From Stigmatella aurantiaca DW4/3-1 (lineage in GTDB: Bacteria; Myxococcota; Myxococcia; Myxococcales; Myxococcaceae), in contig NC_014623.1 in assembly GCF_000165485.1 (NCBI RefSeq), forward strand, positions 7,334,893 through 7,398,892: 64,000 nt of DNA, written 5' to 3'. The translations under genes and the position numbers were made by a program. Position 1 is the stretch's first letter. Every line of letters begins with the position of its first letter. Of the stretch, positions 4,199-34,980 are shown one piece after another. The notes below the pieces were generated by a model, which made no database searches, was not told the DNA's origin, and saw only the letters and a program-made list of their open reading frames with translations.

Positions 4199-4271
4199 GG
4201 GCCCTTAGCTCAGCGGTTAGAGCTGTCGGCTCATAACCGATTGGTCCCCGGTTCGAATCCGGGAGGGCCCA
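4199..4271 (+). tRNA. tRNA with CAT anticodon, probably tRNA-Ile2 (lysidine-modified), possibly elongator tRNA-Met
   Basis: A 73-nt cloverleaf can be drawn by eye: acceptor GGGCCCT pairs with AGGGCCC, D arm GCTC/GAGC, anticodon stem GTCGG/CCGAT with loop CTCATAA (anticodon CAT), T arm CCGGG/CCCGG with TTCGAAT, discriminator A, no encoded CCA. The body (CCCTTAGCTCAG, GGTTAGAGC, TTGGTC) resembles bacterial tRNA-Ile2 more than elongator Met, so decoding of AUA after lysidine modification is the better guess. Its 3' part is the repeat that bounds the downstream integrative element. Confidence 0.92.
4227..4271. other. Putative attachment site, left copy (attL) inside the tRNA gene
   Basis: The 45 bp from the anticodon stem to the tRNA 3' end are repeated exactly at 33023-33067. 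Integrases of genomic islands commonly recombine within the 3' half of a tRNA, restoring the gene. The position and extent fit that use. Homology continues beyond the repeat because the flanks are duplicated, so the true core crossover cannot be narrowed from this sequence. Confidence 0.7.
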
Positions 4272-4609
4272 CTCTTCGTAACCCTTCCCCACGCCTCGGG
4301 ATTCTCCTCCGGGGCGGTGGGGCGGAAGGCGGCCCTCTCGGAGTTCCGCACCAGATGCCAAGCTGCCTTTCTGAATTCGGCAAAGATGGCAGGGCCAACA
4401 AACCATCGAGGAGTGCAAGTGAATGGACGTGCAGCACTGGCCTTCTTCGTGAGCCTGCTGCTGCCTCTGCCACTCGTCTTCTTGCTGAGCGGTGGGCTGC
4501 TGCCCGGCTTGCGTAAAGGCAGTCCTGCATCGACAGCCAATGCACCCAGGACTCCGAGTGTCCCGAAGACCAGATCTGCCGTCCCATCGCTTCTTCGGGC
4601 GACGGCCCC

Positions 4610-5179: not shown

Positions 5180-5274
5180 CCGAGTTCCTCTCGGGGTGCC
5201 CGCTGAATGGGACTCAAACACCACCACCCTCTTGGGTCTGATAGTCTGGGGGTTACCTGGGAGGTTCCCCCGCA

Positions 5275-6189: not shown

Positions 6190-6202
6190 CAACAAGCGAG
6201 AG

Positions 6203-8029: not shown

Positions 8030-8191
8030 ACCGGACGCTGTATCGGCGTGTCGTGGCGGACTTCTGCTGACGCTGTAGTGGCGCTGCGCGGCACGGCCAA
8101 TCCCCAGCGTCGTTCATTCCGCTGGTTCATGCTGGGTAGTGTTTCGCTCCATTGCGCGGCGCCCTTTCGCGCTGCCAGGAGTCACCACCGC

Positions 8192-10320: not shown

Positions 10321-10461
10321 TAAGCGCTTTTTTGGCTCGCAAGGGGGCAAGGTCGGCGCCAGAACCCACGCCGACAAAGCCAAAGGCCAGGCTGGAAGAA
10401 AGCGTGGCATGATGCGCCTCATGCTCCGCCGCCTCGCCTGATGGCTTCTTGACTCTGCCCG

Positions 10462-11535: not shown

Positions 11536-11936
11536 GGGATGAATCCTCTGGGAGGGTGCCAACGCGGAATGGGTGGCCCAAATCCATCGTAACACGACTA
11601 CACTGCCTTCTCAGATAGACCTGCACCTGAGCTTTTGCCGGCCCAATCCTGATTCGCCGTCATCCTGTTCCACCGGGCTCCGGGCCCCTGAGCGCAGGAA
11701 GGACAGGAGCCCCAGTGGGCGTAGAGAGCGGGAGGTGCGAGAGGCTGACGGGTAGCCCATGATCCACATTCCGGGCCGACGCAGAAGCCATTCATCTCCC
11801 GCAGACACACGCCTGCCCTGCCCAGCCGCCTTCCCAGGCGGAACGCGGCAGGGGCTTGCCTCTCTTGGCTGGCTGGGGCGACCCTCGCGCAGGGGCCTGT
11901 CTCGCACCTGCCATGAGCAGTCCCAGATGCTCCAGA

Positions 11937-13391: not shown

Positions 13392-14718
13392 TCACTGAGT
13401 TCGCCGTGACTCCAACACATAGTTCCAGTCGCCATGAAAGTCATCAGCCCGTAGCGCCAAGCTCTTCATTTCTGCCTTCGTGATCTCGCCCCCCGTTGGA
13501 TATTGCCGTTTGTCCAGTCGTGCCTTGACGCGCAGGCCTTTGGTGGTTCGCGTGCTTCCAATGAGGTTGACCACGGTCTCATAGCTGGTCAGCGGCTTGC
13601 CCCTCCAGTTCTGTTCTGGGTGATGTGGCAGAAGAGCCGATGCTCGATTTTGTTCCACTTGCTCGTTTCTGGCGGAAAGTGGCACACATGGATGCGCAGC
13701 CCCGCCTCGTCGGCGAACCTTTGCAGTTCGAGCTTCCAGGCGCGTGTGCGGTAAGGGGCCCGGTCGGAAATTAGTTGTCCGAATTTCCAAGCTGAAGGCC
13801 AGTTTCTCGGGCATCGGAACGCCCCTCATGGCCAAGTAAATCGTGATCGGGCCCTTAGCCGTTGCTGCCCCCTGCATCGGCTGTAATGAGCAGTTCCGTC
13901 GCTCTGGGATAGGCTGGCTGTCCCATCGTTTTCCACCACTGGCCAATCGATGCGACGGCAAAGGCTGGCGTGTCATGATCGCGCCCGACGCTGACCCAAG
14001 CCTCGTTTCGGCTCATGTCGAAGATACCGTAGGGGATCGCCTTGCCCAGAGCCTCTTCAGGAAAGTCGTGGACATTGACCTCTTCCGGTCGGCCCTTCGG
14101 TTGCCACTCCCGTCCTGCATTTCTGAAGGGACCGACAAGTTCCTTCTTCTTCGTGTCCACGGAGATGACGGGTTGCTTGCGTGCCTGGAAGTTCTCCACC
14201 ATCGCGGAGATGTACTCGAATTGGGCGTTGCGGTCTGGATGCTCTGCGCCCTCGAGATTCTTGCGCAACGCATGAAGGCTATACCCCAGTTCGTGCAACT
14301 TCTTGCCGACACTCACATGGCTGACCCGATAGCCTTCGCGCCGCAACTCTGTTGCCAGATTCCGGGTACTCTTGCAACTCTACCGCAGGGGCGACATGGG
14401 ATCGCCTCTTGTCGTCGGCGACACCAGCCGCTCAAGTGCCTCAACCCATCCCTCTTGTCTCACCACCAGCGCCTTGCGGCCACCACCAGGTCGCCGCTGA
14501 CGCTCTGTACCTGCATCGCCTCTCTTCAGTTCCTCGCGGCCTGCTCGGATCGTCTCCCGTGCCAATCCCGTCGCACCCGCCACCACCGAGTCGCCACCAT
14601 ATCCTATTGAACTCGACTCTGTTGCTGCCCACAGTCGGCGAGCCTGTTAATTCAATACTCTTTCCAGGGCCTGATACTTTGTGCGGACGGCCGCCTCCAA
14701 CTTCAGGTCTCGCTTCAT
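13392..14718 (-). pseudogene. ISAzo13-family transposase, multiply disrupted
   Basis: The ISAzo13 protein can be followed from ATG 14718 (KYQALERVLN) through GATGLARETIRAG, RRPGGGRKALV, HELGYSLHALRKN, VISVDTKKKELVG, the KGRPEEVNVHDF block, LLITADAGGSNG, TSKWNKIEH and HGDWNYVLES. Lesions seen: an in-frame TAA after VLN, an in-frame TAG after MSPLR, the MITE inserted after GGSNG, and a 5-bp duplication (CAGAA) near HITQN that shifts the frame. Catalytic motifs survive in pieces only. Confidence 0.9.
13754..13855. repeat. 102-bp MITE with TA target duplication inside the ISAzo13 transposase
   Basis: Ends AGGGGCCCGGTC and GATCGGGCCCT are imperfect inverted repeats, flanked by TA at 13752-13753 and 13856-13857. 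Deleting the segment plus one TA restores the transposase reading GGSNG-YRTRAWKLELQRF, which proves it is an insertion. TA duplication suggests mobilisation by an IS630/mariner-type transposase. Confidence 0.8.
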
Positions 14719-14774: not shown

Positions 14775-15848
14775 CTACCTCAGTTGTTCGACGATGAGCT
14801 GGCGCGCATTCAGATGAATGGTCACGCGTCCTCCTTTCAATTCTCGAAGCTGGCGGAAGGCACGAAACCCTTCGAGGATGGCTTCCTCCCATTGCCACAC
14901 TGGGAGTTGCGAGACCTCATACCCCTTCGTGAACTCCTGGATGCTCTTCAACAGGTCGTAGTCCACTTGTGAGAGGTTCTCGAAATACCTTACCTGCTTC
15001 GCACGGCTGAAGACGATGGCAGAAATAGCCTCTTCGATAATAACGGCCCTCGCACCGTCCTGGTTCTCATCGGCGGAACGATCGCTCTTCCGCTTGGAGC
15101 GCAGGAGGGCGCGGAGCACAGGAGACCAGCCTAGGTATGCCGCATATGCGAAGTGGAAGATGTCGTGATAGCGGTAAGCATCCGCATCCGTGATGTTGTC
15201 CGTGATGCGGTCCCCAATGTTGATGTCCTTGTACCGCAAGAGAATCTGCGGCCTCTCGGGCGTGCCGCGCTCGATGAAGTCCACGGTGAAGAGGCGGGGG
15301 AGCTGTTCCTCTTTGGGAGCGCTCTCATCAAAAAGCGGATGTGCCTTTTTCTCCAAGGGCCAGCGGCTCTCTATCTTCTTGCGGTTCCTCTTGGACGCCT
15401 CAACCAGCTCGATGGGGGCCGCGGCTGCAACCACACGCAGGCCGTGCCATGTGTCCTGGAGCGCGACGCGAAGAGTGTCTGGATTGGCACGATGGATGGC
15501 TTCCAGCACGCGACCGGCTGCAGCCCCCAGAGCGAGGATGGGGACTAGCGGGGTTTGGGCGGTATTTCCCGCTTCGCCCGGTGTGTCGAGAGGCAGCGTC
15601 TGGAGCAGATCCGACGCGCTCACGTTGGCGAGACGTACGAAGTACCACAGCGCGTCGCCCAGCTCGTCCGCCAGCCGCCCCTCATAGAGGGGATAGGCGG
15701 GGCCTTCGCGCTTCTTCTTCTTGAACTCGGCCAGGACACCTCCGACTTCACCCAAGAGCCCGGACGCGAGAAGCTCCTTATGGTCGCGCTCCCGAACCAG
15801 GGTGTCCGTCTTCTCAGCGGCTACCGCGAACTCGAGGAGCCAGCTCAT
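14775..15848 (-). CDS. MazG-like nucleotide pyrophosphohydrolase with large C-terminal domain (paralogue 1)
   Basis: 357 aa from ATG 15848 (GGGAGGT 5 nt upstream), overlapping the stop of the Nmad2-like gene by the ATGA arrangement. The N-terminal part is MazG-like: LLGEVGGVLAEFKKKKREG then LADELGDALWYFVRLA, the second helix keeping the ExxD metal motif, while the first has ExxG instead of ExxE. The C-terminal half (from about residue 180) has ITDADAYRYHDIFHFAYAAY, GWSPVLRALL and EEAISAIVFS, shared with the paralogue at 21520-22410. MazG enzymes hydrolyse (d)NTPs to monophosphates; the C-terminal domain resembles the MazG_C type reported in conflict systems (recalled, not searched). Last gene of the TIR-Nmad2-MazG operon. 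Confidence 0.75.
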   Translation of the reverse strand: MSWLLEFAVAAEKTDTLVRERDHKELLASGLLGEVGGVLAEFKKKKREGPAYPLYEGRLADELGDALWYFVRLANVSASDLLQTLPLDTPGEAGNTAQTPLVPILALGAAAGRVLEAIHRANPDTLRVALQDTWHGLRVVAAAAPIELVEASKRNRKKIESRWPLEKKAHPLFDESAPKEEQLPRLFTVDFIERGTPERPQILLRYKDINIGDRITDNITDADAYRYHDIFHFAYAAYLGWSPVLRALLRSKRKSDRSADENQDGARAVIIEEAISAIVFSRAKQVRYFENLSQVDYDLLKSIQEFTKGYEVSQLPVWQWEEAILEGFRAFRQLRELKGGRVTIHLNARQLIVEQLR

Positions 15849-16480
15849 GCGCACCTCCCAAGGTGGGCTCCAGGCCTAGCCAGATGGCGACGGAACTCCA
15901 CGGGCTCTCCCTTGAGACCTGGACCGAATGAGGTGACCCATTCGACGAAGTCCTTCATGAACTCTGGAGCAAAGTGGGACAGGTGGCCTTGCCCACCACG
16001 GATGATGGTCTCTCCCTTGCCTCTCCGGAACCGCTCGGGAATTATGATGGCGCCCTTTCCGAAATAGACGAACCAGTCGCTCACCAGCACGCGGTCCACG
16101 TGCGTGTCGTGGCTCACGTTGGCACGATTGGTGCTATCCTTATGGCTGTGGTGGGACCTGGCTTGGCACCACTGCCCACCTGCTCGATGGTAGATATTGT
16201 CGCCGAAAGCCTGCTTAATGCTCGCATGCAGGTTGGGCCGCTTTGACAGAAAGCGGGGATCCGACCAGTACCGGTCGAACGTGAGCGTCTCACCGACTCG
16301 CATAGCGTAGATGAGCCGGTCGCCCAGGCCGTGCTTTTTGGAGCCGGTCCCAACCACCCAGTCACCGCGCTGCGCGCCCTTCCGAATCTGGGGCTTGCAG
16401 GTGGCAAGGGTACAATGGCCATAGAAAGGGTTCGGAGCGAACCCGTAGTCTCGCGCAACGACATAGGAGTAGAGTGTCAT
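15845..16480 (-). CDS. Nmad2-like (nucleotide-modification-associated domain 2) protein
   Basis: 211-aa protein beginning MTLYSYVVARDYGFAPNPFY with CTLATCKPQIRKGAQRGDWV and GTGSKKHGLGDRLIYAMRV, the pattern I recognise as the Nmad2 family named for its genomic link to modified-base systems. A central KRPNLHASIKQAFGDNIYHR block, an HHSHKDSTNRANVSHDTHVDR stretch and VSDWFVYFGKGAIIIPERFR follow. Biochemical function is unknown; the GDWVVGTG pattern recalls nucleotide or base-binding domains of the PUA/EVE type, which is inference. Its ATG overlaps the TIR gene stop (ATGA, 16477-16480) and its stop overlaps the MazG-like start, so the three proteins are probably made in fixed ratio. Confidence 0.7.
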   Translation of the reverse strand: MTLYSYVVARDYGFAPNPFYGHCTLATCKPQIRKGAQRGDWVVGTGSKKHGLGDRLIYAMRVGETLTFDRYWSDPRFLSKRPNLHASIKQAFGDNIYHRAGGQWCQARSHHSHKDSTNRANVSHDTHVDRVLVSDWFVYFGKGAIIIPERFRRGKGETIIRGGQGHLSHFAPEFMKDFVEWVTSFGPGLKGEPVEFRRHLARPGAHLGRCA

Positions 16481-16956
16481 TCGGGCGTTGGCTCCCCACA
16501 GTTGTAGCGTTCGATGTCCCGCTCTGGGACCAAGTTCGAGCCGTCAGGGTTGCACCAAGTGTTGATGGTGCCATTCACCGCGTCCACCACACGCTCTACC
16601 TGGCAGTTCACCAGGGCATCTCCGTACATCTGAAAACTCACGGGGAGGTCTGCGTCCTGCCCTCCGAGGACATACACGCCCACGATGCGCTTCCCCTGCC
16701 TCTCCGCGTACTCAATCTCCTTGTCGGTCCAAGGCCTCGTGCGGATGGCTGGAGAAATCAGGACAAGGAGCGCTCCTGCCCTGTCGATGCGCGGAGTCAT
16801 ACGGTGCGCGCCCGCTGCTCCGGAGAGCAAGGGGCTCTCGCTCGACGAGTGCTGGAGGCTGTACCCATGCATCGCGAGGAGACCCTTCAACTCCTGAACC
16901 ACGGCGCCATCCTGAGGGGCATGACTGATGCAGATGTTCTTGCTCTCATCGCTCAC
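16477..16956 (-). CDS. TIR-like (Thoeris-ThsB/DUF1863-type) domain protein
   Basis: About 159 aa from GTG 16956, which has AAGGA 9 nt upstream; an ATG at 17043 would add 29 low-complexity residues without a ribosome site. The fold pattern is SKNICISHAPQDGAVVQELKGLL, then RIDRAGALLVLISPAIRTRPW, DKEIEYAERQGKRIVGVYV and a closing helix, as in MTH538-type TIR-like proteins. Bacterial TIR proteins make signal nucleotides from, or consume, NAD; the invariant catalytic Glu may be E in DKEIEYAE but cannot be assigned by eye. First gene of a coupled operon with the Nmad2- and MazG-like genes. Function as an immune sensor or signal producer is inferred. Confidence 0.7.
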   Translation of the reverse strand: MSDESKNICISHAPQDGAVVQELKGLLAMHGYSLQHSSSESPLLSGAAGAHRMTPRIDRAGALLVLISPAIRTRPWTDKEIEYAERQGKRIVGVYVLGGQDADLPVSFQMYGDALVNCQVERVVDAVNGTINTWCNPDGSNLVPERDIERYNCGEPTPE

Positions 16957-17311
16957 GGCAACCCATCCTTGTTGTTGAGTGGATCCCGGCTGTTTGGTGA
17001 CCCCCTCTAGTGCTGATGCTCCGGACCGCCTGTTTTTCGCCATCGCGATCAGAAAAATTTCGCTCGAAATGCGTGGGGAGGAATCTGGCGCGTCGGCCCA
17101 TTACAGGGCGAGATGCTCGCCACCCTGCGCATTTCGCCATGAGGGGCGAAATGCGTCAGACCACGCTGAGAGCATGGCCATCCGGGAGCAGGACCAGAGA
17201 CAATGGTCGTGCTGTAATTTTCCATTCCAAATGATTCAGTCGCGCTATTTTCGAGCGCCTTGGCAAAAAAGGCGGATTAATGAGCATCCTGAAGAAAGGA
17301 GCGGGAGAGGG
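16957..17311. promoter_or_regulatory. Divergent promoter region with palindromic CGAAATGCG sites
   Basis: A region between the TIR operon (minus) and the sigma-like operon (plus). It holds an 11-bp perfect inverted repeat CGCATTTCGCC (17128-17138) and GGCGAAATGCG (17145-17155) with a 6-nt loop, plus a further half-site CGAAATGCG at 17065-17073. Three copies of the same 9-mer between divergent genes suggest an operator for a regulator encoded here, possibly one controlled by the ImmA/IrrE protease. No clear -35/-10 pair was identified. Confidence 0.55.
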
Positions 17312-17893
17312 GTGGATACCAAGGTCCGAGCCAAGTTCATGGCGGAGGTGCCGCGCGTGCATGCGCAGGTGCTCGCCCGTGTCCTCATCCTCGTGAGGGG
17401 CACAGGCTTTAGGATACGTTCGATGACCCCGAATGAAGCAGCAAGGGACCTCGTTCAAGAGGCCGTGATGCGGGCCTTGGATGGTCGAAGGAACTGGAAC
17501 CCCGAGCAAGTGCCCGATTTGGATGTCTACCTGTGTGAAACCGTCCGCAGCATCATGAATGCAGAGTTCCGAAGCAGCGCGATGAACACGTATCTCTATG
17601 AGGAGGACAGCGTCGAACTCGACAAGGTGCAAGCGCTCGCCGAGAAAACCACTCCCGAGGACGAGCACCTGCACCGAGAGCAGATTCGCCGCAGGGTCGA
17701 CCTGATTTTAAGGGCCACCCAGAACGAGAAGAGCCTCCTTGCACTCGTGGAGGCCATCATGGATGGCTGCGACAAGCCTACCAAAGTGGCTGACCAGCTC
17801 GGTATACCTGTTGAGGAGGTTTACAATGCGACTCGAAAGCTTGCTCGCCGTGCACTCGTTCTAGAACAGCAGATAGAGGAGCAGCAGCAATGA
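17312..17893 (+). CDS. Sigma-70-family-like transcription factor (ECF-like)
   Basis: 193 aa from GTG 17312 with AAGGAGCGGGAG upstream. A region-2-like segment (NEAARDLVQEAVMRALDGRRNW, VDLYL-type DLDVYLCETVRSIM) is followed by an acidic linker and a C-terminal helix-turn-helix (DKPTKVADQLGIPVEEVYNATRKLARR), the arrangement of small sigma factors. The stop overlaps the next ATG by 4 nt (17890-17893). It probably directs transcription of the local cluster, its own partner genes included. It could also be a sigma-like HTH regulator that does not bind core polymerase. Confidence 0.7.
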   Translation: MDTKVRAKFMAEVPRVHAQVLARVLILVRGTGFRIRSMTPNEAARDLVQEAVMRALDGRRNWNPEQVPDLDVYLCETVRSIMNAEFRSSAMNTYLYEEDSVELDKVQALAEKTTPEDEHLHREQIRRRVDLILRATQNEKSLLALVEAIMDGCDKPTKVADQLGIPVEEVYNATRKLARRALVLEQQIEEQQQ

Positions 17894-18312
17894 CGAAGCG
17901 CATCGAGCATGACGCCGACGCAGCCTTCCTCGCCTGCTTCGACACACTGAACGAGGATGTTCCACTTGGGCCGGACGAGGCCAAGGACATCCTCCGTGAA
18001 GCAGGTGTTGACCCAGATACAGAGCTGGCTCACCTAATGTCATTTATTGATGACTTTGAGAAGAAACAAAAAAAAGAGCGGTTTGCACGTGCGGAACGTG
18101 AACGCCAACAAGCACTTCAACGAATTTCGGCTCGCCGAGTTTCACGCGCACGACCAGAGCTGCTTGCTCGCATTGAGTTTTTGAAATCCAGGCTCCCAAA
18201 CGGAGCGGAACTTCAAGCACATTTCCGGGGTTTCGAGTCAGCGCCCGAAGAGGACTTGGAGTCGCTCGTAGCAGAGTTTGAGGAACTCATCGAGCATGGC
18301 CAAAAAAAATAG
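17890..18312 (+). CDS. Hypothetical 140-aa protein between sigma-like factor and ImmA/IrrE protease
   Basis: Not recognised. Acidic N-terminal part (DEDVPLGPDEAKDILREAGVDPD), then a long charged helix (FEKKQKKERFARAERERQQAL), then SRARPELLARIEFLKSRLP. No signal peptide or membrane segment. It is translationally coupled to both neighbours (ATGA with the sigma-like gene; 17-nt overlap with the protease gene). By analogy with ImmA/IrrE systems, where the protease cleaves a partner, this protein is a candidate inhibitor of the sigma-like factor and protease substrate; that is inference only. Confidence 0.6.
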   Translation: MTKRIEHDADAAFLACFDTLNEDVPLGPDEAKDILREAGVDPDTELAHLMSFIDDFEKKQKKERFARAERERQQALQRISARRVSRARPELLARIEFLKSRLPNGAELQAHFRGFESAPEEDLESLVAEFEELIEHGQKK

Positions 18313-19087
18313 CTGGCAGCATGCTGATGTACAACGGGGCGAGCATGCCGCGCGCCGGGTCTATGCTGAGCTCGGCATTTCGCATCCGACCGAAGCGCCA
18401 TTGGAAGTTCTGGCTTATCTGCGTGGAGCCCTTGTCCGTGACCTGCCGATGCGTGGAGCGCTTGGCAGGATTTCACGTGTTGGCCCCAGCGCAGTCATTT
18501 CAATCAGCACCAGCATCTCGTACGCACCGCGGCGCAGATGGACCATCGCCCACGAACTCGGGCATCTCGAGCTTCACAAAACAGGAAGCCAGCTTGAGCT
18601 TTGCAAAGACGCCGACATCTCGGAGAACTATGACGCAGGTACCGAGCGTGAGGCCAACGCTTTCGCCTCGGAATTCTTGATGCCTTCCACGCTCTGGAGC
18701 AAGTGCGTTGACGTTGCGGAGCCCAATCTCGACATTGTCGGAACACTCGCAAAAGAGTTTGAGGTAAGCTTCACTGCCGCAGCCATCCGTTTCGTCAAGC
18801 TGTGTCCCGAATGCTGCTGCGTTGTGTTCGCCAAGGAGGGAAAGATAGAGTGGTTTGCACGGGGTTCCGACTTTGACTACCAGATGCAGCAAGGCACAAA
18901 GCTTGACCCTTATACCCTCGCCTTCGACTACTTCAAGAAAGGCACGGTAACTACCCGTCCTGAAACTGTCTCTGCCAGTGCTTGGCTATCGGATAAGTAC
19001 GTCAAAGCTGACGACGAGTTGGTTGAGCATTGCCGCATACTCCCTCATCTGGGTGCAACGCTATCACTCCTCTGGGTTCCGCCTTGA
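18296..19087 (+). CDS. ImmA/IrrE-family metallopeptidase
   Basis: 263 aa from ATG 18296. The zinc motif is clear: RRWTIAHELGHLELHKTG (HELGH plus downstream His), followed by EREANAFASEFLMP with the third ligand Glu and then FEVSFTAAAIRFVKL. A C-terminal domain with CPECCCVVFAKEGKIEWF and a terminal beta-rich part follows, as in ImmA/IrrE proteins with GAF-like tails. Members cleave transcriptional repressors or regulators after stress or DNA damage. In this operon the target is likely the 140-aa protein or the sigma-like factor. The gene overlaps the upstream one by 17 nt. Confidence 0.88.
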   Translation: MAKKNSWQHADVQRGEHAARRVYAELGISHPTEAPLEVLAYLRGALVRDLPMRGALGRISRVGPSAVISISTSISYAPRRRWTIAHELGHLELHKTGSQLELCKDADISENYDAGTEREANAFASEFLMPSTLWSKCVDVAEPNLDIVGTLAKEFEVSFTAAAIRFVKLCPECCCVVFAKEGKIEWFARGSDFDYQMQQGTKLDPYTLAFDYFKKGTVTTRPETVSASAWLSDKYVKADDELVEHCRILPHLGATLSLLWVPP

Positions 19088-19244
19088 TGAGTCGGCGGAA
19101 GCTCTTGAGCCACGCCAGCCTCCTCTCCGCTGTCTTGCTACGGCCAAACTACGGCCAAACCTTGTCCTGCATGTCGTGCTTGCCTGCCTTCCGAGCACAA
19201 GATGCAGTGGTGCGGTGCGTACCCCGTGAACGGTTACTCCTTCT

Positions 19245-19483
19245 TATGCGCAATTCGTCAGCATCGCGAAGAGCATCTATAACAAGCTCCAGGCGGACGG
19301 AGGGATGCGCGTCGTTTACGAGCCCGGTGTCATGAAGAACTCTACCGGCGCCAGGACGAAATTGGCACCCCGTTCTGTGTCGGGGTCGACTTCGACACGC
19401 TTGAAGATGGGAAGGACGTGGCGATTAAGAACACCGTTACAGTGCGCTGCCGTGATAGCATGGCGCACGAGTGCGTCGCCGTT
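19245..19483 (+). pseudogene. Glycyl-tRNA synthetase C-terminal fragment
   Basis: Between the protease and UDG-like genes lies a relic resembling the anticodon-binding region of Gly[21 protein letters not shown] in one frame and [20 protein letters not shown], then [13 protein letters not shown] in another. The frame changes near 19330, and the rest of the enzyme is absent. It is the only housekeeping-type fragment in the cluster and hints at the place a segment was picked up or inserted. Confidence 0.65.
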
Positions 19484-19513
19484 TCCGGGTTCAAGACCTA
19501 CCGGCGCGAAAAG

Positions 19514-20188
19514 ATGCAGCGAGGGCTGTGCAAACAGTTAGGGGGGTACGTGGCATTCAACGTCAACGACTTCGTGGCGCGCGTGAGCAAGGTGCAGGTC
19601 TCGCACCATTTCAACCCGTACCGCGACACGTGCCCTGAGCATGACACGCCGGAGGCACCCCAGGTGCGCCAGGCGAATCTGCGGGCCTATCTTCAGGCGC
19701 TCCAACAGTTTCCCATCAAGGCTGCCTGGATAGGCCAGGACTTCGGCTATCTCGGCGGACGGCGGACGGGGCTCCCTCTGACCGATGAGATGCGCCTCTC
19801 CTCCTTCGAAAAGCTCTACAAGACCGCTCCTTTGAAGAAGGCGACGTGGACGGAGGCGGCGCGGGAATCCACTGCGTTGGAGGCCTGGAAGTTGCTACCC
19901 ACGTACTCCTCCCATCCTCCGCTTCTCTGGAACGTGGTTCCCCTACATCCCTATGAGCCAGGCGATTCCATGTCCAATGTGCCATTCAGCCGGGCCGCCG
20001 CCCAACAATGCCTTCCGTTCTTGGCAGAGCTACTGAATCAATTCTCCCCTCACGTGGTCATTGCAGTAGGTAGGCTTGCGGAGGATGCACTCACGCAGTT
20101 GGGAGTCCCGACCATCTACGTACGCCATCCGAGCCATGCTGGGCAGCGTAAGTTCCAGGAGGGTATTCAGAAGTTCATGAAGTTCTGA
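19514..20188 (+). CDS. Uracil-DNA glycosylase superfamily protein
   Basis: 224 aa from ATG 19514; the frame stays open further upstream but only through the GlyRS relic. The family pattern is [14 protein letters not shown] near the N-terminus, [24 protein letters not shown] (the base-excision motif-A region), [31 protein letters not shown], and [14 protein letters not shown], the motif-B His loop. Such proteins excise uracil or, in some families, bind or remove modified bases. It is followed 15 bp later by the kinase-like gene, so the two are probably co-transcribed. Given the hmdU-kinase-like neighbour, a modified-thymine substrate is an attractive inference. Confidence 0.8.
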
Positions 20189-20203
20189 CCTGACAGGAGA
20201 GCC

Positions 20204-21541
20204 ATGTCCGAGCTGACTGCAGTGGAAGTCTCGTATGACCTTCTCGAAAAGCCACGCCGCGAGGCCATCCAGGCTTCCGCACAGCACTTACTTAAGGAGA
20301 TAGACCGGCCCAAGGCAATTCATGAGAAAACCCTGAGCTTGCGCGAGTACATCTGGCCAGCACTGGATGCCTACGGACATGACCAAAGTCTGCCTCATGA
20401 TTACGAGCTCAGTCTGTTGCCTCTAAGTAGGATTGGTGCTGAGCAGGGCTTCTCTGGGAGCAGCATTCTCTTAGGGTATTTCAAGCATAAGAAGAACACC
20501 AGCCTCTTCCCCTCTCAACCCATGGTCATCAAACTGCGGGAGAAGTGCCCCACAGCGTTCGGCAAGCTCTCCGAGCTTCGGGATGAGCTTCACCGCGCAG
20601 AGCGATTGAGGCCTTATATCTCCTACCACAAGAGTCAGTATGCGCTTCCCCTGCACATCTCTGACGATCTTCCCGGAATGGGCTACCAGGTGCTTTGGTC
20701 TCCTTTTGCGTTGACAGATCTGGTTCAACGCCACCAGTCGGGTCTCAGCTTTCTAGAGGCCCCTGATCTTCGTCAGCTTCTGAAGATCAAAAAGGGAGGG
20801 GAGCCCTCTGAGGAGTCATTGAAAAAGGCCCTGAAGGTGGTTGAGAGCGCCTTTCAAATCATGGGTCCTCTTCATAAGCGAGATGGAACGGCTCGTTCTG
20901 TATCGACTTCATTCCACAAGGAATACGAACCCTATTTGAGAAAGCTCGGAGAGGGCTGGGGCAGTTCCTGGAGGGAGATATGGGGAACTCAGCAAAAAAC
21001 TTCGGACTTCAATATCTGCTGGGTCAATCCCTTCTGGGTTCTCAGCGAGCTAATGGCTCGGAACAACGTTTTATTGCGCCTTGGTGCAATTCATGGCGAC
21101 CTGCACCCAGGGAATATTCTCTATGCCACGCCCGAGCGCCCATTTTTGATCGATTTTGGATGGGCTGATGACAATGCCCACATTGCCAAGGACTTCGTTC
21201 TTTTGGAGTGTAATCTGCGGTTCATCTACTTCCCTGCCGACGTTTCATTCTCGGAAGTGCGGCGTTTTGCTCAGATGAATGCCCAGGATGTCGCATGGCC
21301 GGAGGATTTGAATAAGCGATTCAAGCCGCGATTCGATGTGATTCAGTCACTCAGAAAAGCATTCCTTGATGCGCACGGAGTCAAGGTGGACTGGATGACG
21401 GAGTACGTCATTCCGCTGTTCCTGGTGTCCATGGGGCTGCTACGCTACGTGGATCAGTACACCAACCAGGTGGCGGCGCGCCTGACCGTCCTGGAACTCG
21501 CCCAGTATATCAACGATAACTATCTGTTGCAGGTGGAGTAG
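20204..21541 (+). CDS. APH-like kinase-fold protein (TCAD9-like)
   Basis: 445 aa from ATG 20204 (ACAGGAG 8 nt upstream). It has the small-molecule-kinase signature LGAIHGDLHPGNILYA and FLIDFGWADD, equivalent to HxDxxxxN and DxD of aminoglycoside phosphotransferases, and an N-lobe with GFSGSSILLGYF and VIKLREKC carrying the likely ATP Lys. I recall a Ternary-complex-associated domain 9 family in conflict systems with this signature; assignment by eye only. Substrate unknown. It is downstream of the UDG-like gene and its last 22 bp overlap the convergent MazG-like paralogue. Confidence 0.7.
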   Translation: MSELTAVEVSYDLLEKPRREAIQASAQHLLKEIDRPKAIHEKTLSLREYIWPALDAYGHDQSLPHDYELSLLPLSRIGAEQGFSGSSILLGYFKHKKNTSLFPSQPMVIKLREKCPTAFGKLSELRDELHRAERLRPYISYHKSQYALPLHISDDLPGMGYQVLWSPFALTDLVQRHQSGLSFLEAPDLRQLLKIKKGGEPSEESLKKALKVVESAFQIMGPLHKRDGTARSVSTSFHKEYEPYLRKLGEGWGSSWREIWGTQQKTSDFNICWVNPFWVLSELMARNNVLLRLGAIHGDLHPGNILYATPERPFLIDFGWADDNAHIAKDFVLLECNLRFIYFPADVSFSEVRRFAQMNAQDVAWPEDLNKRFKPRFDVIQSLRKAFLDAHGVKVDWMTEYVIPLFLVSMGLLRYVDQYTNQVAARLTVLELAQYINDNYLLQVE

Positions 21542-22410
21542 GTCAGCGTCCGCTTGAGCATATCGACATGCACCCTCCCACCCTCATGTGTACGCATATT
21601 ACGCCAGACACGGTAGCCCATTAGGATGGCCTGCTCCCATTGAGCGGGCGAGCGCTCACGGACCTCAAGGTTGGTCGTCAGCTTCTTTATGGTGCGAAGC
21701 AATTCGTCGTCGAGGGCTCTACTGTTCTGCAAGAAGTCATGGTCCACCGCATAGGAGAAGACGTAGGCGGAGATGCCTTCCTCGATGACTGCGGAACGTC
21801 CCCCGTCTTCCACTTCATCTACCTTCGGCTGGCTCCGACGCTTGCGGTCCATCAACTTACGCATGACGGGTGACCAGCCGAGGAACGCCGCATAGGACAG
21901 GTGGAAGACGTCGTGGAAGCGGTAGCCATCGTCCGCGTAGGCATTGTCGGTCAGGCGGTTGCCAATGATGTGTCCCTCCCACTTCAGGAAGACGGTGGCC
22001 GTCTTCCCCTGCATCTGTTGGGTGAACTCCACGGAGAATTGACGAGGGAGTTGTTCCTCGGCAGGAAAGCCGTCATCGAAGAATGAGTAGGGACTCGTGC
22101 ACTCGGAGGTGTCCTCGCGCAGGAATCGCTCCCGGGTCTTCTTGAGGTTGAGCCGCGCAATCTCGTCAAGCTCCAGGCCAAACTTCGTTGCGACGTTGGC
22201 GACGTACCAGAGGATGTCTCCCAGCTCCTCGGCAACGTTCTCCTTGAAGAGGCGGTACGTGTCTCGGTCCCGCAGCTTCTTCTTATAGTCCGATAGCAGC
22301 GTGCCTACCTCGCCGGCCAAGCCCAGCAGGGGGACGATGAGTCCTTCCTCGGCGTTAGAGGGGTTCCGGTCTGTCTCTTGCGCCCGTCGTTGGTACTCCC
22401 GCAGGTCCAT
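21520..22410 (-). CDS. MazG-like nucleotide pyrophosphohydrolase with large C-terminal domain (paralogue 2)
   Basis: 296 aa from ATG 22410. N-terminal MazG-like helices: DLREYQRRAQETD, GLAGEVGTLLSDYKKKLRDR and VAEELGDILWYVANVA; as in paralogue 1 the first metal motif is ExxT instead of ExxE and the second ExxD is kept. The C-terminal domain has DDGYRFHDVFHLSYAAFLGW and EEGISAYVFSYA. It is shorter than paralogue 1 because it lacks an Ala-rich insert near residue 90. It follows the TMPK/hmdU-kinase-like gene on the same strand with a 136-bp gap. The two MazG-like genes sit at opposite sides of the cluster and are encoded on the same strand. Confidence 0.75.
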   Translation of the reverse strand: MDLREYQRRAQETDRNPSNAEEGLIVPLLGLAGEVGTLLSDYKKKLRDRDTYRLFKENVAEELGDILWYVANVATKFGLELDEIARLNLKKTRERFLREDTSECTSPYSFFDDGFPAEEQLPRQFSVEFTQQMQGKTATVFLKWEGHIIGNRLTDNAYADDGYRFHDVFHLSYAAFLGWSPVMRKLMDRKRRSQPKVDEVEDGGRSAVIEEGISAYVFSYAVDHDFLQNSRALDDELLRTIKKLTTNLEVRERSPAQWEQAILMGYRVWRNMRTHEGGRVHVDMLKRTLTYSTCNR

Positions 22411-22546
22411 CAGCTGTCTCCACGTCTAGGAGTGTGTTGCAGTAACGGGAAAAACGAGCTTCGACCTACGAGAGGTAGTACCGGCTCTGGAGTCGAAGCC
22501 CATCAGGTAGTAGGTCATCGGATTACCCCAACAGGCTCCTAGCCCA

Positions 22547-24313
22547 TCACTTGAGTCCGTTGCTCAGCTCCCCCTGGCTCGACTCCGCAGCGATGCGCTC
22601 GTTCAGCCCCCATTTGGGAGGAAACCAGTAGTCTATCCTGCCTGGGTCATGACGGTAATGTTGCTTGATGCGCGTCCGGCCGCTGATTCCCTGAATCTCC
22701 GGATGGGCGACACGAGCGTATTTATCAACCTCACAGAAAAGGTTCTGGCAGTCGATGAGGTGCAGCTTGCGGCCCCACAGGGAGCGGAAGCGCAGGCCCA
22801 GCGCCTCGAAGGCCTCATCTTGCATGCGTGTGACATACTCGATGACCTGAGACTCCGTTATCCCTCCGAGGTCTCCGAAACACTTGCGGATTCCATCGCG
22901 TGCTCCCGGTCCGGGGACGATAAAGTCTTCCTCGAAGTCGTAGGCCGCGCTGTAGTTGAGGTCCGTCACATACTGGTAAGCGAGGAAGTCACCCATCATC
23001 GGATACGAGCGCAGAATTTCGAAGGCCGTCCGCAGGTTCCTGGCTTCCTGCATGCGCAGCGGCACGCGCTCCTTCATCATGTACTCGAGCAAGCGCAGGT
23101 GGGTGCCATGCTTGCGGGGGTGATCGAAGCCAGAGGCGGCCGGCATGACATAGGCGGCGGAGTAAATGCGCTCTTCCCTCTCCATTGCCCGAGAGAGCAC
23201 CCGCTCATAATGCTCAAAGTCATAATCCGCGAAGGAGATTTCTCCCACCTCCGCCTCGAGCAGCTTCCACGTATCGATTTTGTTGAAGAGCTTGAACAGG
23301 AGCGTCCGGAAAAAGATATTCTCTGCGGTCTGATCGCCTCGGTAGGTGACGTTCCGGATGAGGTACTGGCTGACACGGTCCGCCGCTCGGTAGGCGTTGG
23401 TGAAGCGGTACTCTGAAAGGATGGGGTCTTCGGTCCACGGAGGCGGAGTGCCTTCCAGCCGCCGGAAGAAGACTTCCTGACGCTCGGCGGCAAACCGCCA
23501 ATATGTCTCGAACACCGGTGTCGGCCGCAAAGCCTGAGGGAGACACTGAATCAGGGAGCGAGGCTCATACTTCGGTGCGGGATTGGGCGTGAAGGTGAAG
23601 CCGAGCTGCTCGACTGGGCGCTGCTCGTGCCTTTTCAAGACGAGCGGCGTCTCGGTGGGGATTTCCCTCAAGAGGGCTTCCGGTGCGAGTGAAAGGGCCT
23701 TCGCGGCCAGCTCCTCGGCAGAGGAGCCGTCTTCCAAGTGGCGGATGCAGTAGACGGTCCCGTTATCCTCCGCGAGCGTCTGGTAGCTGCGCTCCACTCC
23801 GCCCTGGCCGAGCTGGGAGACTCCCCCCTGATCCTGTTTCGCCGGGTACAACATGAAGATTGCATGCGGTGCGGCCCGCTCTTCCCAGAACTTACGTTCG
23901 AACTCGATGAGCCGCTTTAGCAGGCGGGAGGGCACGCCTCGCGCCTGGCCGTCCACCGCTGTGGACCACCAAAAGCTATCTGTCACTACACACGTGTTGG
24001 ATGCAAGGGCGGGAGGGGCACCCTTCACCGCACAAATCATTCGTGAGAAGGCATCAACCAGCTGCTCGATGATGGGCTCCGCGCTGGCAGCTTGCCCACG
24101 GGATTTGCCACCCTTGACAACAGGCTGAGCCTCATTGGAAACAAGCGCTGAGCCTTTCTGGCAGGGGAGATAGATGCAATTGACGCCTCGTTGCGTGAGC
24201 GCGTGAGCGAATGCCTCGGCTACCGCCGCCCGCTTGCTCCGGTTGACTCCCTCGAAGACATACAGCTTCGCCGGATGTCCCTTTCCCCTCTTCGCTGTCT
24301 GTGCTGGCCGCAT
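22547..24313 (-). CDS. Thymidylate-kinase-like P-loop domain fused to 5-hmdU DNA kinase helical domain
   Basis: 588 aa. Residues about 14-230 follow a thymidylate-kinase layout: LYVFEGVNRSKRAAVAEAFA at the P-loop, VVTDSFWWST, FMLYPAKQDQGG. The P-loop is degenerate (GVNRSKRA, not GxxGxGKT/S). Residues about 270-575 match the helical domain found in phage 5-hydroxymethyl-dU DNA kinases and once called alpha-glutamyl/putrescinyl-thymine pyrophosphorylase: RFTNAYRAADRVSQYLIRNV, LLFKLFNKIDTWKLLE, IYSAAYVMP, LAYQYVTDLNYS, LIDCQNLFCEVDKYARVAHP, GISGRTRIKQHY. It likely acts on modified thymine in DNA or on the nucleotide. First gene of a short operon with MazG-like paralogue 2. Confidence 0.78.
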   Translation of the reverse strand: MRPAQTAKRGKGHPAKLYVFEGVNRSKRAAVAEAFAHALTQRGVNCIYLPCQKGSALVSNEAQPVVKGGKSRGQAASAEPIIEQLVDAFSRMICAVKGAPPALASNTCVVTDSFWWSTAVDGQARGVPSRLLKRLIEFERKFWEERAAPHAIFMLYPAKQDQGGVSQLGQGGVERSYQTLAEDNGTVYCIRHLEDGSSAEELAAKALSLAPEALLREIPTETPLVLKRHEQRPVEQLGFTFTPNPAPKYEPRSLIQCLPQALRPTPVFETYWRFAAERQEVFFRRLEGTPPPWTEDPILSEYRFTNAYRAADRVSQYLIRNVTYRGDQTAENIFFRTLLFKLFNKIDTWKLLEAEVGEISFADYDFEHYERVLSRAMEREERIYSAAYVMPAASGFDHPRKHGTHLRLLEYMMKERVPLRMQEARNLRTAFEILRSYPMMGDFLAYQYVTDLNYSAAYDFEEDFIVPGPGARDGIRKCFGDLGGITESQVIEYVTRMQDEAFEALGLRFRSLWGRKLHLIDCQNLFCEVDKYARVAHPEIQGISGRTRIKQHYRHDPGRIDYWFPPKWGLNERIAAESSQGELSNGLK

Positions 24314-26320: not shown

Positions 26321-26876
26321 CGGATCGGTCACGAGGGGAGGGATCACCGCGTAGCGACCGACCGATAACTGGAGAGTTCTCAAGGCTTTCCACTCATCGG
26401 AAGGAGCTACGCGGTGAAAACAGAGTGTACCCCGAAGCAGGTGGAGTTCGACAGCGTTGGAAGGAGGCAATTGGTGGCGGCGTTTGACGGGGAGCACATC
26501 TCGTCGGATGGAGGGCTGACGCTGTTGCACCAGGTGGACCAGCGCTTCGGGCTGATGCGACAGTTCGCTGAGTGCTTCAAGGACATGAGAAGGCCGGAGT
26601 GGCTCAAGCACACGGTGGAAGAGCTCGTCCGTCAGCGTGTTTTCGGCATCGCGTGCGGCTACGAGGACCTGGTGGACCACCAGACGCTGAGAAACGACCC
26701 GCTGCTTGCAGCCGTGGTGGGCAAGGAGGAGCCTCAGAAGCAGCCTTTGGCCAGCCCGAGCACCCTCAACCGGCTGGAGCTGACGCCCGCGGACGCCACC
26801 GCGCAGGCGCGCTACCGCAAGGTGGTCTACGACAGCCGGGCCATTGAGGACTTCTTCGTGGATGCGTTCCTGGATG
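26321..26876. mobile_element. IS1380-family element, left part only
   Basis: Starts near CCCGGATCGGTCACGAGGGG, a sequence also found (reversed) at 13260-13283, and runs into the transposase start. It is cut at 26877 by the second IS66 element. The right half is absent. Confidence 0.75.
26414..26876 (+). pseudogene. IS1380-family transposase, N-terminal fragment
   Basis: From GTG 26414 the frame reads FDGEHISSDGGLTLLHQVD, RQRVFGIACGYEDLVDHQTL, LASPSTLNRLEL: the N-terminal DUF4338/DDE part of IS1380 transposases. It stops at AFLD where IS66 sequence begins; the remaining residues to 26911 are encoded by the IS66 end. Confidence 0.85.
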
Positions 26877-26935
26877 GTATCCGCTGCATGAGCCCCGTCT
26901 GGCGGAGCTGAGCCTGCGCGAGCAAGGTGTCGCGC

Positions 26936-27271
26936 ATGGCAAACGCGGAGCAGTGGAAGAAGCGAGTAGCGGACTGGCGCGCCAGCGGGCTGAGCGCGGC
27001 GGAGTATTGCAAGGGCCAGGAGTTCACGACGGGCCCGCTGTACCGGTGGTCCAGTCGGCTGGCGGAGGCAGCGGGTGGAGAGGCGAGCCCTCTGGTGCGA
27101 CTGGTGCGCGGCACGCAGCCCCCGGCTACCGCCGAGGCCGCGCCGCGAGCCGCCCAGGTCATCATCGAAGTGCAAGGCGCACGTGTCCTGGTTCCTCCTG
27201 GCGCGGACGTTGCGACGGTGGGGATGGTGCTGGCGGCGCTCGGGGTGGCAGACCGGAGCGTGGCGCGATGA
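26936..27271 (+). CDS. tnpA: IS66 accessory protein TnpA (copy 2)
   Basis: 111 aa from ATG 26936 with the same HTH pattern (EQWKKRVADWRASGLSAAEYC). It overlaps tnpB by ATGA at 27268. Confidence 0.92.
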   Translation: MANAEQWKKRVADWRASGLSAAEYCKGQEFTTGPLYRWSSRLAEAAGGEASPLVRLVRGTQPPATAEAAPRAAQVIIEVQGARVLVPPGADVATVGMVLAALGVADRSVAR

Positions 27272-27609
27272 TTCCGCACGGCGTCGAAATCTTCGTCGGG
27301 CTTCAGCCCATCGACTTGCGCTGGGGGTTCGAGCGGCTGGCGGGGCTGGTGGAGGAGCGGCTGGGCCGCCCGACGCGCAGCGGGGCGCTCTTCGTCTTCT
27401 TCGGCAAGCGGCGCACCGCGCTCAAGGTGCTCTTTTACGACGGCACGGGGCTGTGCCTTTTCTACAAGCGTCTGGACTCGGGCTGCTTCCAAGTGCCCGC
27501 CGGGCTGGCGGAGGGCGCCCAAAGCCTGGCGGTGGAGGAGCACGTGCTGGAGGAGTTGCTGGACGGGCTGCGCGTCGAGGCGCCGACTCGCGGCCCTCGC
27601 CCGCATTGA
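27268..27609 (+). CDS. tnpB: IS66 accessory protein TnpB (copy 2)
   Basis: 113 aa, closely like the copy at 25630: IDLRWGFERLAGLVEERL, LFVFFGKRRTALKVLFYD. Intact. Confidence 0.93.
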   Translation: MIPHGVEIFVGLQPIDLRWGFERLAGLVEERLGRPTRSGALFVFFGKRRTALKVLFYDGTGLCLFYKRLDSGCFQVPAGLAEGAQSLAVEEHVLEELLDGLRVEAPTRGPRPH

Positions 27610-27700
27610 GAGCAGCGCGCGCGGGGTCCGCACGCGGTGGTACCTACCCGTCAGGAGGGTGTCGACAGCGCGGATGTCAGGGGTTACAAGGCCGCCTCCG

Positions 27701-28195
27701 ATGCACGAGTCCACGGACGCCACCCAGGCGCGCATTGCCGAGTTGGAGGTGGCCCTGCTCGCGGAGCGGGCAGCCCTGGCCGCCGAGAGGCAGCGCAGCG
27801 CGCAGTTGGAGCAGGAGCGGGACGTACTGAAGGCCTCGCACGAGAGGCTGCGGCTGGAACTGGAGTTGCTCAAGCGCCGTCTCTTCGTGGCCAAGGCCGA
27901 GCGGGTGGACACCCGGCAACTGGAGCTGGAATTCGCCCAGAAGCTGCGGGCCCTGGAGGAGGTGGCCGACACGTTGGGCATGGCCTCGGGCGAGGTATCA
28001 GGGGGCGTGGGGAAGAAAAAGAAGCGCAAGCCAAAGGGCCGACGCGACTTGAAGAGTCTGCCGCTGGAGGAGAAGCGGGTGGAGATTACCGACCCCGTCT
28101 TCGACGCGCTGGTGGCCCAGGGCAAGGCCGAGCGAATCGGCTTCGAGGAGAGCTGCAAGCTGGCGTGGCAGCGGGGCGGCATGCGAAGGCCGTAA
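27701..28195 (+). pseudogene. tnpC: IS66 transposase TnpC, N-terminal fragment (copy 2)
   Basis: Begins at ATG 27701 with the coiled-coil leader and continues through KKKKRKPKGRRDLKSLPLEE and EITDPVFDALVAQGKAERIG, part of the zinc-binding region. It is truncated at the next IS66 terminus (28192), which supplies the stop. Confidence 0.82.
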
Positions 28196-28252
28196 GCCAC
28201 CGGTCCTGCCCAGGTAGTAGGAGGCCCGTGTCACGTGCAGGGTGGCGGCACG

Positions 28253-28627
28253 ATGAAGACCCGAGAAACGACGAGAGCGACTGCAGCCTCGTGGCAGGAG
28301 GAGGCACGGAGTGCGCGGTGGACGGAGGAGATAGCGGAGGCGGTGTTCCGAGCGCAGGAGGCCGAGGGCATTTCTCTGTGGGCATTCTGCCAGCGGCACG
28401 GGCTATCCTATGCACGGGTCCGGTTCTGGCAGCAGCGGCGCAGCCGCGAGCAGCAGCCGTTGTCCTTGGTTCCCGTGAGAGTGAGCGGGGCAGCGCTGCC
28501 GGATGAGAGTGGCGCGGGCGGCCTCGAGATGGAGGTGTCGGGAGTCCGCGTCCAGGTACGAGAGGGAGCCAGTCAGGAGCTGATTTCGCGGGTGGTGCGA
28601 GCGCTCAAGGAGAGCACGGCATGCTGA
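28253..28627 (+). CDS. tnpA: IS66 TnpA-like protein (copy 3)
   Basis: 124 aa from ATG 28253. HTH segment WTEEIAEAVFRAQEAEGISL, WAFCQRHGLSYARVRFWQQR; C-terminal beta part as in TnpA. Overlaps tnpB by 7 nt. Confidence 0.88.
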   Translation: MKTRETTRATAASWQEEARSARWTEEIAEAVFRAQEAEGISLWAFCQRHGLSYARVRFWQQRRSREQQPLSLVPVRVSGAALPDESGAGGLEMEVSGVRVQVREGASQELISRVVRALKESTAC

Positions 28628-28962
28628 GACTGCCGGAGTCGGTGCGAATCTTCGTGGCCAGCGCGCCCACGGACATGCGCAAGCAAGCCGATGGGCTGTC
28701 CGCGCTGGTGAAGGGCGTGCTGGGAGCAGAGCCGCGTTCCGGTCACCTCTTCGTGTTCTTCAACCGGGGCAAGGACATCATCCGTATCCTGTTCTGGGAC
28801 AGCAACGGCTTCTGCGTGGTGAGCAAGCGTCTGGAGGCGGGACGCTTCCGGGTGCCGGAGGTGGCTGAGGGCCAAGCCTCGGTGAGCCTGGAGGCCAAGC
28901 AACTGGTGGAGGTGCTCTCGCTGGTGGAAGCGGCGCGTGCGCGTCGGCGTCCGGTGCACTGA
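28621..28962 (+). CDS. tnpB: IS66 TnpB (copy 3)
   Basis: 113 aa: RIFVASAPTDMRKQADGLSA, HLFVFFNRGKDIIRILFWD, GFCVVSKRLEAGRF, the classical IS66 Orf2 pattern. Intact. Confidence 0.95.
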   Translation: MLRLPESVRIFVASAPTDMRKQADGLSALVKGVLGAEPRSGHLFVFFNRGKDIIRILFWDSNGFCVVSKRLEAGRFRVPEVAEGQASVSLEAKQLVEVLSLVEAARARRRPVH

Positions 28963-29029
28963 GGGGCGCAGGACGCAGCAGGGCTTTTCAGTTGCGGCCT
29001 ACCTCAGAGGTTGGCATAGCTGGGCGCGC

Positions 29030-33022: not shown

Positions 33023-33067
33023 CGGCTCATAACCGATTGGTCCCCGGTTCGAATCCGGGAGGGCCCA
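33023..33067. other. Putative attachment site, right copy (tRNA 3' fragment)
   Basis: An exact 45-bp copy of 4227-4271. Upstream sequence does not complete a cloverleaf, so this is a tRNA 3' fragment and not a gene. Together with the left copy it bounds 28.8 kb. Confidence 0.75.
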
Positions 33068-34967: not shown

Positions 34968-34980
34968 CAACAAGCGAGAG

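Follow-up and report, generated by a model that had tools for sequence, protein, structure and literature searches.

A mosaic immune-type locus of Stigmatella aurantiaca DW4/3-1 with a candidate sigma factor-CapP protease switch

The cluster of ten genes (g1-g10) at positions 14775-24313 of the stretch analysed here, a window of 64,000 nt of Stigmatella aurantiaca DW4/3-1, is a mosaic, immune-type locus and not one ten-gene system. It resolves into a TIR-Nmad2-MazG_C(-UDG) operon (UDG, uracil-DNA glycosylase), a MazG_C-HMUDK_hel pair, and a controller made up of a sigma-like factor, a small protein and a CapP-type protease. Our preferred reading, held with rather more confidence than doubt, is of a composite immune locus that contains its own switch, in which the controller would act on the divergent TIR-Nmad2-MazG_C operon. 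Others have already predicted, and in part validated, the enzyme families of the cluster; what appears to be new is the controller, a variation on CapH+CapP. The gene content of the locus, its conserved neighbourhoods and the conservation of the controller are established below.

The genes form four blocks, g3-g2-g1 (minus strand), g4-g5-g6 (plus), g7-g8 (plus) and g10-g9 (minus), with overlapping reading frames within each of the first two. Ten long open reading frames (ORFs) lie where the original prediction had placed them, and its domain calls, which described a nucleotide/DNA-centred and immune-type gene set, agree with Pfam and PADLOC profiles: nine of the ten proteins match a family above cut-off, and g5 has a weak capH match alone. 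The features are as follows.

14775..15854, minus strand: g1, MazG + MazG_C protein of the insertion-bearing type, as in TIR-Nmad2 operons (Pfam MazG_C 2.7e-78, MazG 3.7e-5)
15845..16480, minus strand: g2, Nmad2 protein (Pfam Nmad2 5.7e-67), sharing 10 nt with g1
16477..17043, minus strand: g3, ThsB-like TIR protein (Pfam TIR_2 4.3e-10; PADLOC ThsB 3.5e-31)
17044..17311, no strand: divergent g3/g4 region of 268 bp, containing a palindrome at 17128-17155
17312..17893, plus strand: g4, extracytoplasmic function (ECF)-like sigma factor (Pfam Sigma70_r2 2.2e-5)
17890..18312, plus strand: g5, small protein whose C-terminal tail resembles that of CapH, a proposed anti-sigma factor (PADLOC capH 1e-3, weak)
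18296..19087, plus strand: g6, CapP-type ImmA/IrrE protease (Pfam Peptidase_M78 6.2e-18; PADLOC capP 1.2e-55), with HExxH as HELGH
19337..19513, plus strand: remnant of a tRNA-synthetase anticodon domain (Pfam HGTP_anticodon 6.9e-8)
19514..20188, plus strand (called ORF from 19418): g7, UDG-superfamily protein (Pfam UDG 1e-7)
20204..21541, plus strand: g8, APH/TCAD9-like kinase, accessory (Pfam TCAD9 4.9e-13 / APH 1.2e-5; motifs HGDLHPGN and DFG)
21520..22410, minus strand: g9, MazG + MazG_C protein of the HMUDK-paired type (Pfam MazG_C 2.8e-81), 71% identical to G096
22547..24313, minus strand: g10, thymidylate kinase (TMPK)-like domain fused to HMUDK_hel (Pfam HMUDK_hel 4.4e-111)

L and G numbers here and below are our own handles. 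The sigma gene g4 most likely starts at the GTG at 17312, behind AAGGAG, and not at 16979; the start of the CapP gene g6 is most likely the ATG at 18296. The called UDG ORF opens at 19418 within the anticodon-binding-domain remnant, so that the UDG proper is taken to begin at about 19514 or later.

The sigma-like gene, the small gene and the CapP gene (17312-19087) recur together as a triad. Among 114 plasmid records with CapP, 25 were listed and 19 loci inspected; all 19 of these, and four genomes of the window's phylum, carry a sigma-like gene of ~180-210 aa and a small gene of ~120-145 aa followed by CapP. A 4-nt gene overlap is present in 11 of the 16 triads measured, and g4 and g5 also share 4 nt. 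The HExxH motif is kept in 18/18 triad proteases. Profiles built from 16 triads with the window included, sigma16 and small16, detect both genes in eight out of eight loci outside the training set (L189, L204-L210), with L189 at 8.6e-26 for the sigma protein and 9.8e-7 for the small protein; g4 itself scores 2.3e-50 against sigma16, a model that includes it. The original prediction proposed regulated expression, and the regulators do belong to the locus; it named all three proteins but did not recognise them as a single conserved switch.

The gene before the triad is divergent in all 18 annotated plasmid loci, and in ten of them a recognisable immune operon lies opposite, including the cyclic-oligonucleotide-based antiphage signalling system (CBASS). 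The neighbours on plasmids and in the window's phylum are:

L178, L182, L186, L206, L207 (five plasmid loci): multiubiquitin/ThiF opposite the triad
L181, L187, L188, L208 (four plasmid loci): CBASS opposite the triad
L184 (one plasmid locus): ThiF + patatin opposite the triad
L043 (phylum): divergent neighbour Prok-E2/multiubiquitin
L044 (phylum): divergent neighbour a sub-threshold PycTM protein
L045 (phylum): on the divergent side two small genes, then a ThiF gene
L046 (phylum): triad co-directional behind a ThiF gene

The remaining 8 of the 18 plasmid neighbours are of no recognised type, one being an inserted IS21 (L183). On the Pontibacter plasmid of L178 (5961-7681), umuD and a Y-family polymerase gene lie directly downstream of the triad, in keeping with a DNA-damage signal.

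Across 14 intergenic regions of triads, no 6-mer other than CGGACA/TGTCCG is present on the two strands of four or more regions (it reaches six). Extended by eye to TGTCCG-N17/18-GCATA (with the bounds of L189 guessed), it occurs seven times in the 2,667 bp that make up 12 plasmid intergenic regions, and the other 123,918 bp of sequence contain no copy. In a held-out test on seven new loci, the unchanged expression gave five sites in four regions (1,138 bp) and none in 59,434 bp outside, a result whose independence is limited by L204 and L207, the sigma proteins of which are 80-89% identical to earlier loci; for those of L208 and L209 no relative exceeds 45%. In total the strict motif occurs in 9 of 19 plasmid regions, on both strands in three, with 12 sites inside and 0 in 183 kb outside, and it is shared by about half of the proteobacterial triads. 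A variant of the putative -10 block, TGTCCG-N17/18-GCATG, is present on both strands of L205 and on the plus strand of L185 (three sites in the 19 regions, one outside).

The assignment of g4 to the sigma factors rests on a marginal pass for region 2 (Sigma70_r2, 24.6 bits against a cut-off of 24) and on TIGR02937, which spans both sigma regions and matches at 6.2e-10 (38.9 bits, under the cut-off of 42.9); no Pfam region-4 match was found in g4. For the small protein g5, no Pfam family scores above cut-off, those of the helix-turn-helix (HTH) included, and its similarity to CapH is confined to the C-terminal part. When the C-terminal ~32 residues of this protein family are compared with the CapH tail, hhalign gives a score of 32.0 (probability 57%, E 1e-4), against 14.1 for the reversed alignment and at most 17.3 for 40 column shuffles; four single small-protein relatives searched against PADLOC had no capH match. 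Because the tail matches CapH and the HTH is absent, these comparisons modestly suggest that the small protein looks like a CapH whose DNA-binding part has been exchanged.

CapP of the CapH+CapP pair is described in excerpts of PMC13373217 as a protease that is activated by single-stranded DNA and cleaves CapH. From this description and the anatomy of the triad, we infer the following sequence of events. In the resting cell, g5 would bind the sigma factor g4 and hold it. Damage or infection would produce single-stranded DNA and activate the CapP protease g6, which would cleave g5 through its CapH-like tail, and the released sigma factor would then transcribe its own operon together with the divergent immune operon g3-g2-g1. 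Among the products, the TIR protein g3 may make or hydrolyse an NAD-derived signal, MazG/MazG_C would hydrolyse nucleoside triphosphates, and the UDG (g7) and HMUDK_hel (g10) may act on bases in DNA, so that jointly they would target NAD and abnormal pyrimidine nucleotides or bases. The g9-g10 pair is presumably an additional set of related enzymes acquired alongside, with g8 an accessory. A role against phages is suggested by the genomic context and by the units with 5-hydroxymethyluracil kinase and thymidylate synthase domains that DefensePredictor validated in E. coli, as excerpted from PMC13092281.

The operon opposite the triad in the window belongs to a recurrent type. In a set of 27 Nmad2 loci, window included, a TIR gene lies no more than 45 bp from Nmad2 in 20, and 18 of these 20 have MazG_C (L156 and L159 are without it in the examined stretch); the other seven Nmad2 loci have no TIR, UDG, HMUDK_hel or MazG_C partner. 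The TIR-Nmad2 loci divide into nine with UDG alone, ten with HMUDK_hel alone, and the window, which has both. The hypergeometric chance of so little overlap is 6e-5, a value that ignores shared descent and the choice of loci, and among the nine UDGs that of L123 stands apart, being of the GEAPG type, at 27% identity. Since the 20 loci carry one or the other, and both only in the window, UDG and HMUDK_hel look like alternatives for one role, to judge from gene content. This swap offers a handle on the cellular roles of HMUDK_hel, Nmad2 and MazG_C, three enigmatic domains.

The original prediction was to be given up if no other genome kept more than two of the genes adjacent or if the domain calls failed in profile searches. 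Neither is the case: TIR-Nmad2-MazG_C, with UDG or HMUDK_hel, is kept together across phyla, and the domain calls hold. The gene order in G105, G075 and G120 is TIR-SLOG, TIR, Nmad2, MazG_C, HMUDK_hel, two of the three having a second TIR ahead of HMUDK_hel, and in all three the gene that follows Nmad2 shares 52-56% identity with g1. Plasmids carry the TIR-Nmad2 pair too: TIR adjoins Nmad2 in all seven loci fetched from 16 plasmid Nmad2 records, and a single TIR-Nmad2-MazG_C-UDG operon is found on Mesorhizobium, Cupriavidus and Beijerinckia plasmids, near which lie further TIR genes (3/3), SIR2 (1/3) and patatin-type phospholipases (2/3). One of three plasmid loci chosen by UDG alone adjoins MazG_C, and the other two are without MazG_C or Nmad2. 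Of the 195 genomes of the window's phylum, 6 have MazG_C, 10 have HMUDK_hel and 7 have Nmad2. Taken with the distribution of the triad, these loci make it somewhat probable that there is a further family of damage-gated immune controllers, in which an anti-sigma factor open to cleavage by CapP restrains a sigma factor; that in the window's phylum, Bacteroidota and Pseudomonadota this family stands head-to-head with operons of the TIR/nucleotide, multiubiquitin and CBASS types, with a bipartite promoter in many proteobacterial members; and that HMUDK_hel and the GRDLG-type UDG are interchangeable in one TIR-Nmad2-MazG_C defence family.

The MazG_C-HMUDK_hel pair is likewise a widespread cellular one. 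A MazG_C scan of genome contigs matched at least 590 stretches, of which at least 553 were confirmed, and the counts that follow come from the best 80. HMUDK_hel is present in 72 of these loci, a protein that we call X300 in 64, a CapP-like protease in 58 and a dCTP-deaminase-like protein in 29; CapP, X300 and HMUDK occur jointly in 54, and a CapH-like gene stands immediately before the CapP-like gene in 46. Two loci examined in detail consist of CapH (capH 1e-18 and 1e-16), CapP, a C1 peptidase (in one of them), X300, HMUDK_hel and MazG_C. X300 (~250-300 aa; L051:6755-7585 and 63 further loci) matched no Pfam family in the three members scanned. In L122:5406-7060 and L013:12510-13526 the CapP-like IrrE protease carries, in the same protein, an Inhibitor_I42 domain, a cysteine-protease inhibitor of the chagasin type; the gene after the L122 fusion encodes a papain-like C1 protease, and in L158:9435-11131 a C1 peptidase adjoins ImmA/IrrE. 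A protease-inhibitor relay possibly operates in HMUDK-MazG_C/UDG operons.

These distributions also bear on how far the cluster hangs together. The original prediction saw one undescribed ten-gene system, which the comparison does not uphold, as no examined locus has all ten genes. A less likely but serious alternative is a defence island in which independent immune and mobile pieces have been gathered between insertion sequence (IS) elements, where the triad would govern no more than the TIR operon opposite it and would have g7-g8 and g9-g10 as unrelated neighbours. It would account for the tRNA-synthetase fragment that separates g6 from g7, which is a recombination scar and presumably derives from a glycyl-tRNA synthetase gene. 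It would also account for the kinase g8, which was rejected as a core component: it is in none of the 116 other locus sequences examined and had no plasmid match, and its relatives in 193 genomes besides its own come to one at 34% identity and four weak matches. Further, MazG_C and HMUDK_hel are kept together without TIR-Nmad2 in G096 and G114, UDG relatives occur without Nmad2 or MazG_C in L151 and L155, the window is the sole Nmad2 locus with UDG and HMUDK together, and the pieces have their best relatives in different loci. However, UDG, MazG_C, Nmad2, TIR and HMUDK co-occur elsewhere in other combinations, and CapP-type proteases stand beside HMUDK-MazG_C operons in the 58 loci counted above.

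Several findings weigh against the composite locus with a sigma factor switch. The pairing of the triad with TIR-Nmad2-MazG_C occurs in the window only, with no second case among the loci examined, and Nmad2 is often alone in unselected genomes: it has a TIR partner in one of the five Nmad2-bearing genomes among 398 (in another phylum) and in four of the seven of the window's phylum, the other three having a lone Nmad2. SLOG, SIR2 and patatin, which are known effectors, are absent from the ten genes in Pfam searches. Some parts of the window may be decaying, to judge from altered TIR and UDG positions and a lost kinase P-loop. In an alignment of 13 sequences, g3 is altered at the F38, R64 and W147 positions and in one loop; it retains W105 and E109, both invariant there. 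The usual UDG motif is GEAPG, in place of which the subfamily of g7, a GRDLG-motif type that often neighbours MazG_C, has GRDLGYRGGRRTG; g7 deviates from its family in this motif and has HPSHAG where the family has HPSYGG, with the UDG profile and the conserved HPS motif both present. An active TMPK domain in g10, and with it the active 5-hmdU DNA kinase domain of the phage thymine-hypermodification pathway, was rejected for the window: Walker A is found in 11 of 13 fused TMPK-HMUDK_hel copies and is lost in g10 and the same-genus L009, and the thymidylate-kinase match of g10 is sub-threshold (Pfam, 0.036). Searches of PDB sequences gave no match for the g7 UDG and four weak matches for HMUDK_hel (best E 0.31).

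The remaining points on that side concern control. The strict motif is absent from 10 of the 19 plasmid regions, including both Bacteroidota loci, and from the window, where GCGAAATG-N18-GCATGG on the plus strand, picked by eye, is not claimed as a promoter. A half-motif search of 398 genomes gave 8 matches against 12 for the reversed control, none of them within 1.5 kb of a triad. What the window does have is the palindrome CGCATTTCGCC-N6-GGCGAAATGCG, the 11-bp arms of which were reached in none of 60 shuffles and the inner 24-mer of which occurs once in the 10.26-Mb genome; a palindrome without the motif makes operator control possible. All six further triad sigma proteins that were scanned fall below the Sigma70_r2 cut-off, four of them without any match. 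These low scores, the palindrome of the window and the inverted repeats that the motif half-sites form in the shared region would suit a g4 that is a sigma-derived DNA-binding repressor or activator, with g5 as its CapP-cleavable partner and the motifs as operators and not promoters. We regard this as unlikely, since the motif consists of two blocks at a constant spacing of 17-18 bp, each facing its own gene, and so resembles -35/-10 elements, and NCBI annotation assigns 4 of 18 annotated plasmid members to the sigma-70 family. If the protease does release a sigma factor, control would be positive and self-amplifying, and a searchable promoter would mark immune operons, including unknown ones.

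The original prediction further tied the cluster to hypermodified thymine in phage DNA. In its favour, 433 of 50,697 phage records contain a relative of HMUDK_hel. Nmad2, in contrast, has no match in those records, and a direct link is therefore not supported; the enzymes of the cluster appear from their domains to be related to the phage thymine pathway, and an origin from that pathway is not supported. That the cluster is a phage remnant or cargo, whether a DNA-hypermodification cassette or a prophage-carried defence operon, seems highly improbable. TIR-Nmad2-MazG_C-UDG is present on three (L133-L135) of the five MazG_C-bearing IMG/VR contigs found, which shows that sequences classified as viral may harbour the operon. 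But the 15 phage matches listed for g10 reach at most 37% identity, with no record covering 80% of the query, and the 15 listed for g9 extend over 32-47%, for the most part in the N-terminal MazG region; such weak or partial matches, together with the absence of Nmad2, disfavour the hypermodification-cassette reading. MazG_C relatives, moreover, number at least 553 confirmed in genome contigs as against 5 in IMG/VR, two counts obtained with differing patterns and from collections of different size.

The surroundings of the cluster include the following mobile-element features, and the IS flanks that had been predicted are present on both sides.

4199..4272, plus strand: tRNA-Met (ARAGORN)
13855..14346, minus strand: left IS remnant, fragment of an ISAzo13-type DDE transposase (Pfam PF07592 1.6e-68)
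26414..30700, plus strand: right IS remnants, a DDE_Tnp_1_4 fragment + IS66 (Pfam)

The last 46 nt of tRNA-Met recur exactly at 33023-33068, 28.8 kb downstream, where they open a 5.2-kb repeat of 97% identity. This recurrence makes it plausible that the cluster lies within a tRNA-directed element, as had been proposed; no integrase was found among ten flanking-region proteins scanned, a subset of the ORFs in that area. A third copy of the 46 nt is absent from the window, from 60 kb past its right end and from 20 kb before its left end. A module of DUF2381 and two Ser/Thr kinase genes is present in copies of 97-98% identity at 4227-11936 and 33023-39797, both of which begin inside a tRNA-Met 3' end; the first copy has an extra IS4/5-type transposase.

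Open-licence literature, covered mostly by narrow word searches, yielded no paper on a sigma-CapP triad or on a TIR-Nmad2-MazG_C-UDG operon, and a prior account in Lau 2022 or Burroughs 2015 is possible. Thoeris consists of a ThsB TIR protein and a SLOG effector. The cluster resembles it in that g3 matches ThsB models and a TIR-SLOG protein adjoins the relatives in G105, G075 and G120, and differs by the addition of Nmad2, MazG_C, UDG or HMUDK. A ThsA-type effector was not found in the window, SLOG and SIR2 being absent from the ten genes and the TIR-SLOG profile blank, in a window-wide search aimed at no other effector type. In the excerpts of PMC13092281, MazG, MazG-C, aGPT-Pplase and dUTPase appear in predicted, unvalidated systems, and NMAD and UDG are named in a figure legend; neither a TIR-Nmad2-MazG_C-UDG operon nor a sigma-CapP controller is described there. 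The Brig3 5-hydroxymethylcytosine DNA glycosylase (excerpts of PMC13160076) is, like g7, a UDG-superfamily enzyme, and one that serves in phage defence, as g7 may do, a likeness drawn from its description only, and g7 differs from it as a member of the GRDLG-motif subfamily.

Lau et al. 2022 reportedly presented CapH+CapP as controllers of immune operons. The triad shares with that pair a CapP-type ImmA/IrrE protease with HExxH beside immune operons and a partner with a similar C-terminal tail of ~32 residues; unlike it, the triad has a partner without a recognised HTH, placed after an overlapping sigma-like gene, stands head-to-head with its neighbours and has a bipartite motif in about half of its proteobacterial members. 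CapW, CapH+CapP and CapK+CapS control immune operons by lifting a repressor, according to the excerpts of PMC13373217. CapK+CapS is a further controller of diverse immune operons whose logic, as excerpted there, is akin to sigma/anti-sigma switches; it pairs a kinase with a STAS-winged HTH repressor, whereas the triad combines a protease with a sigma-like factor, and a protease-released sigma factor would set the triad apart from repressor lifting.

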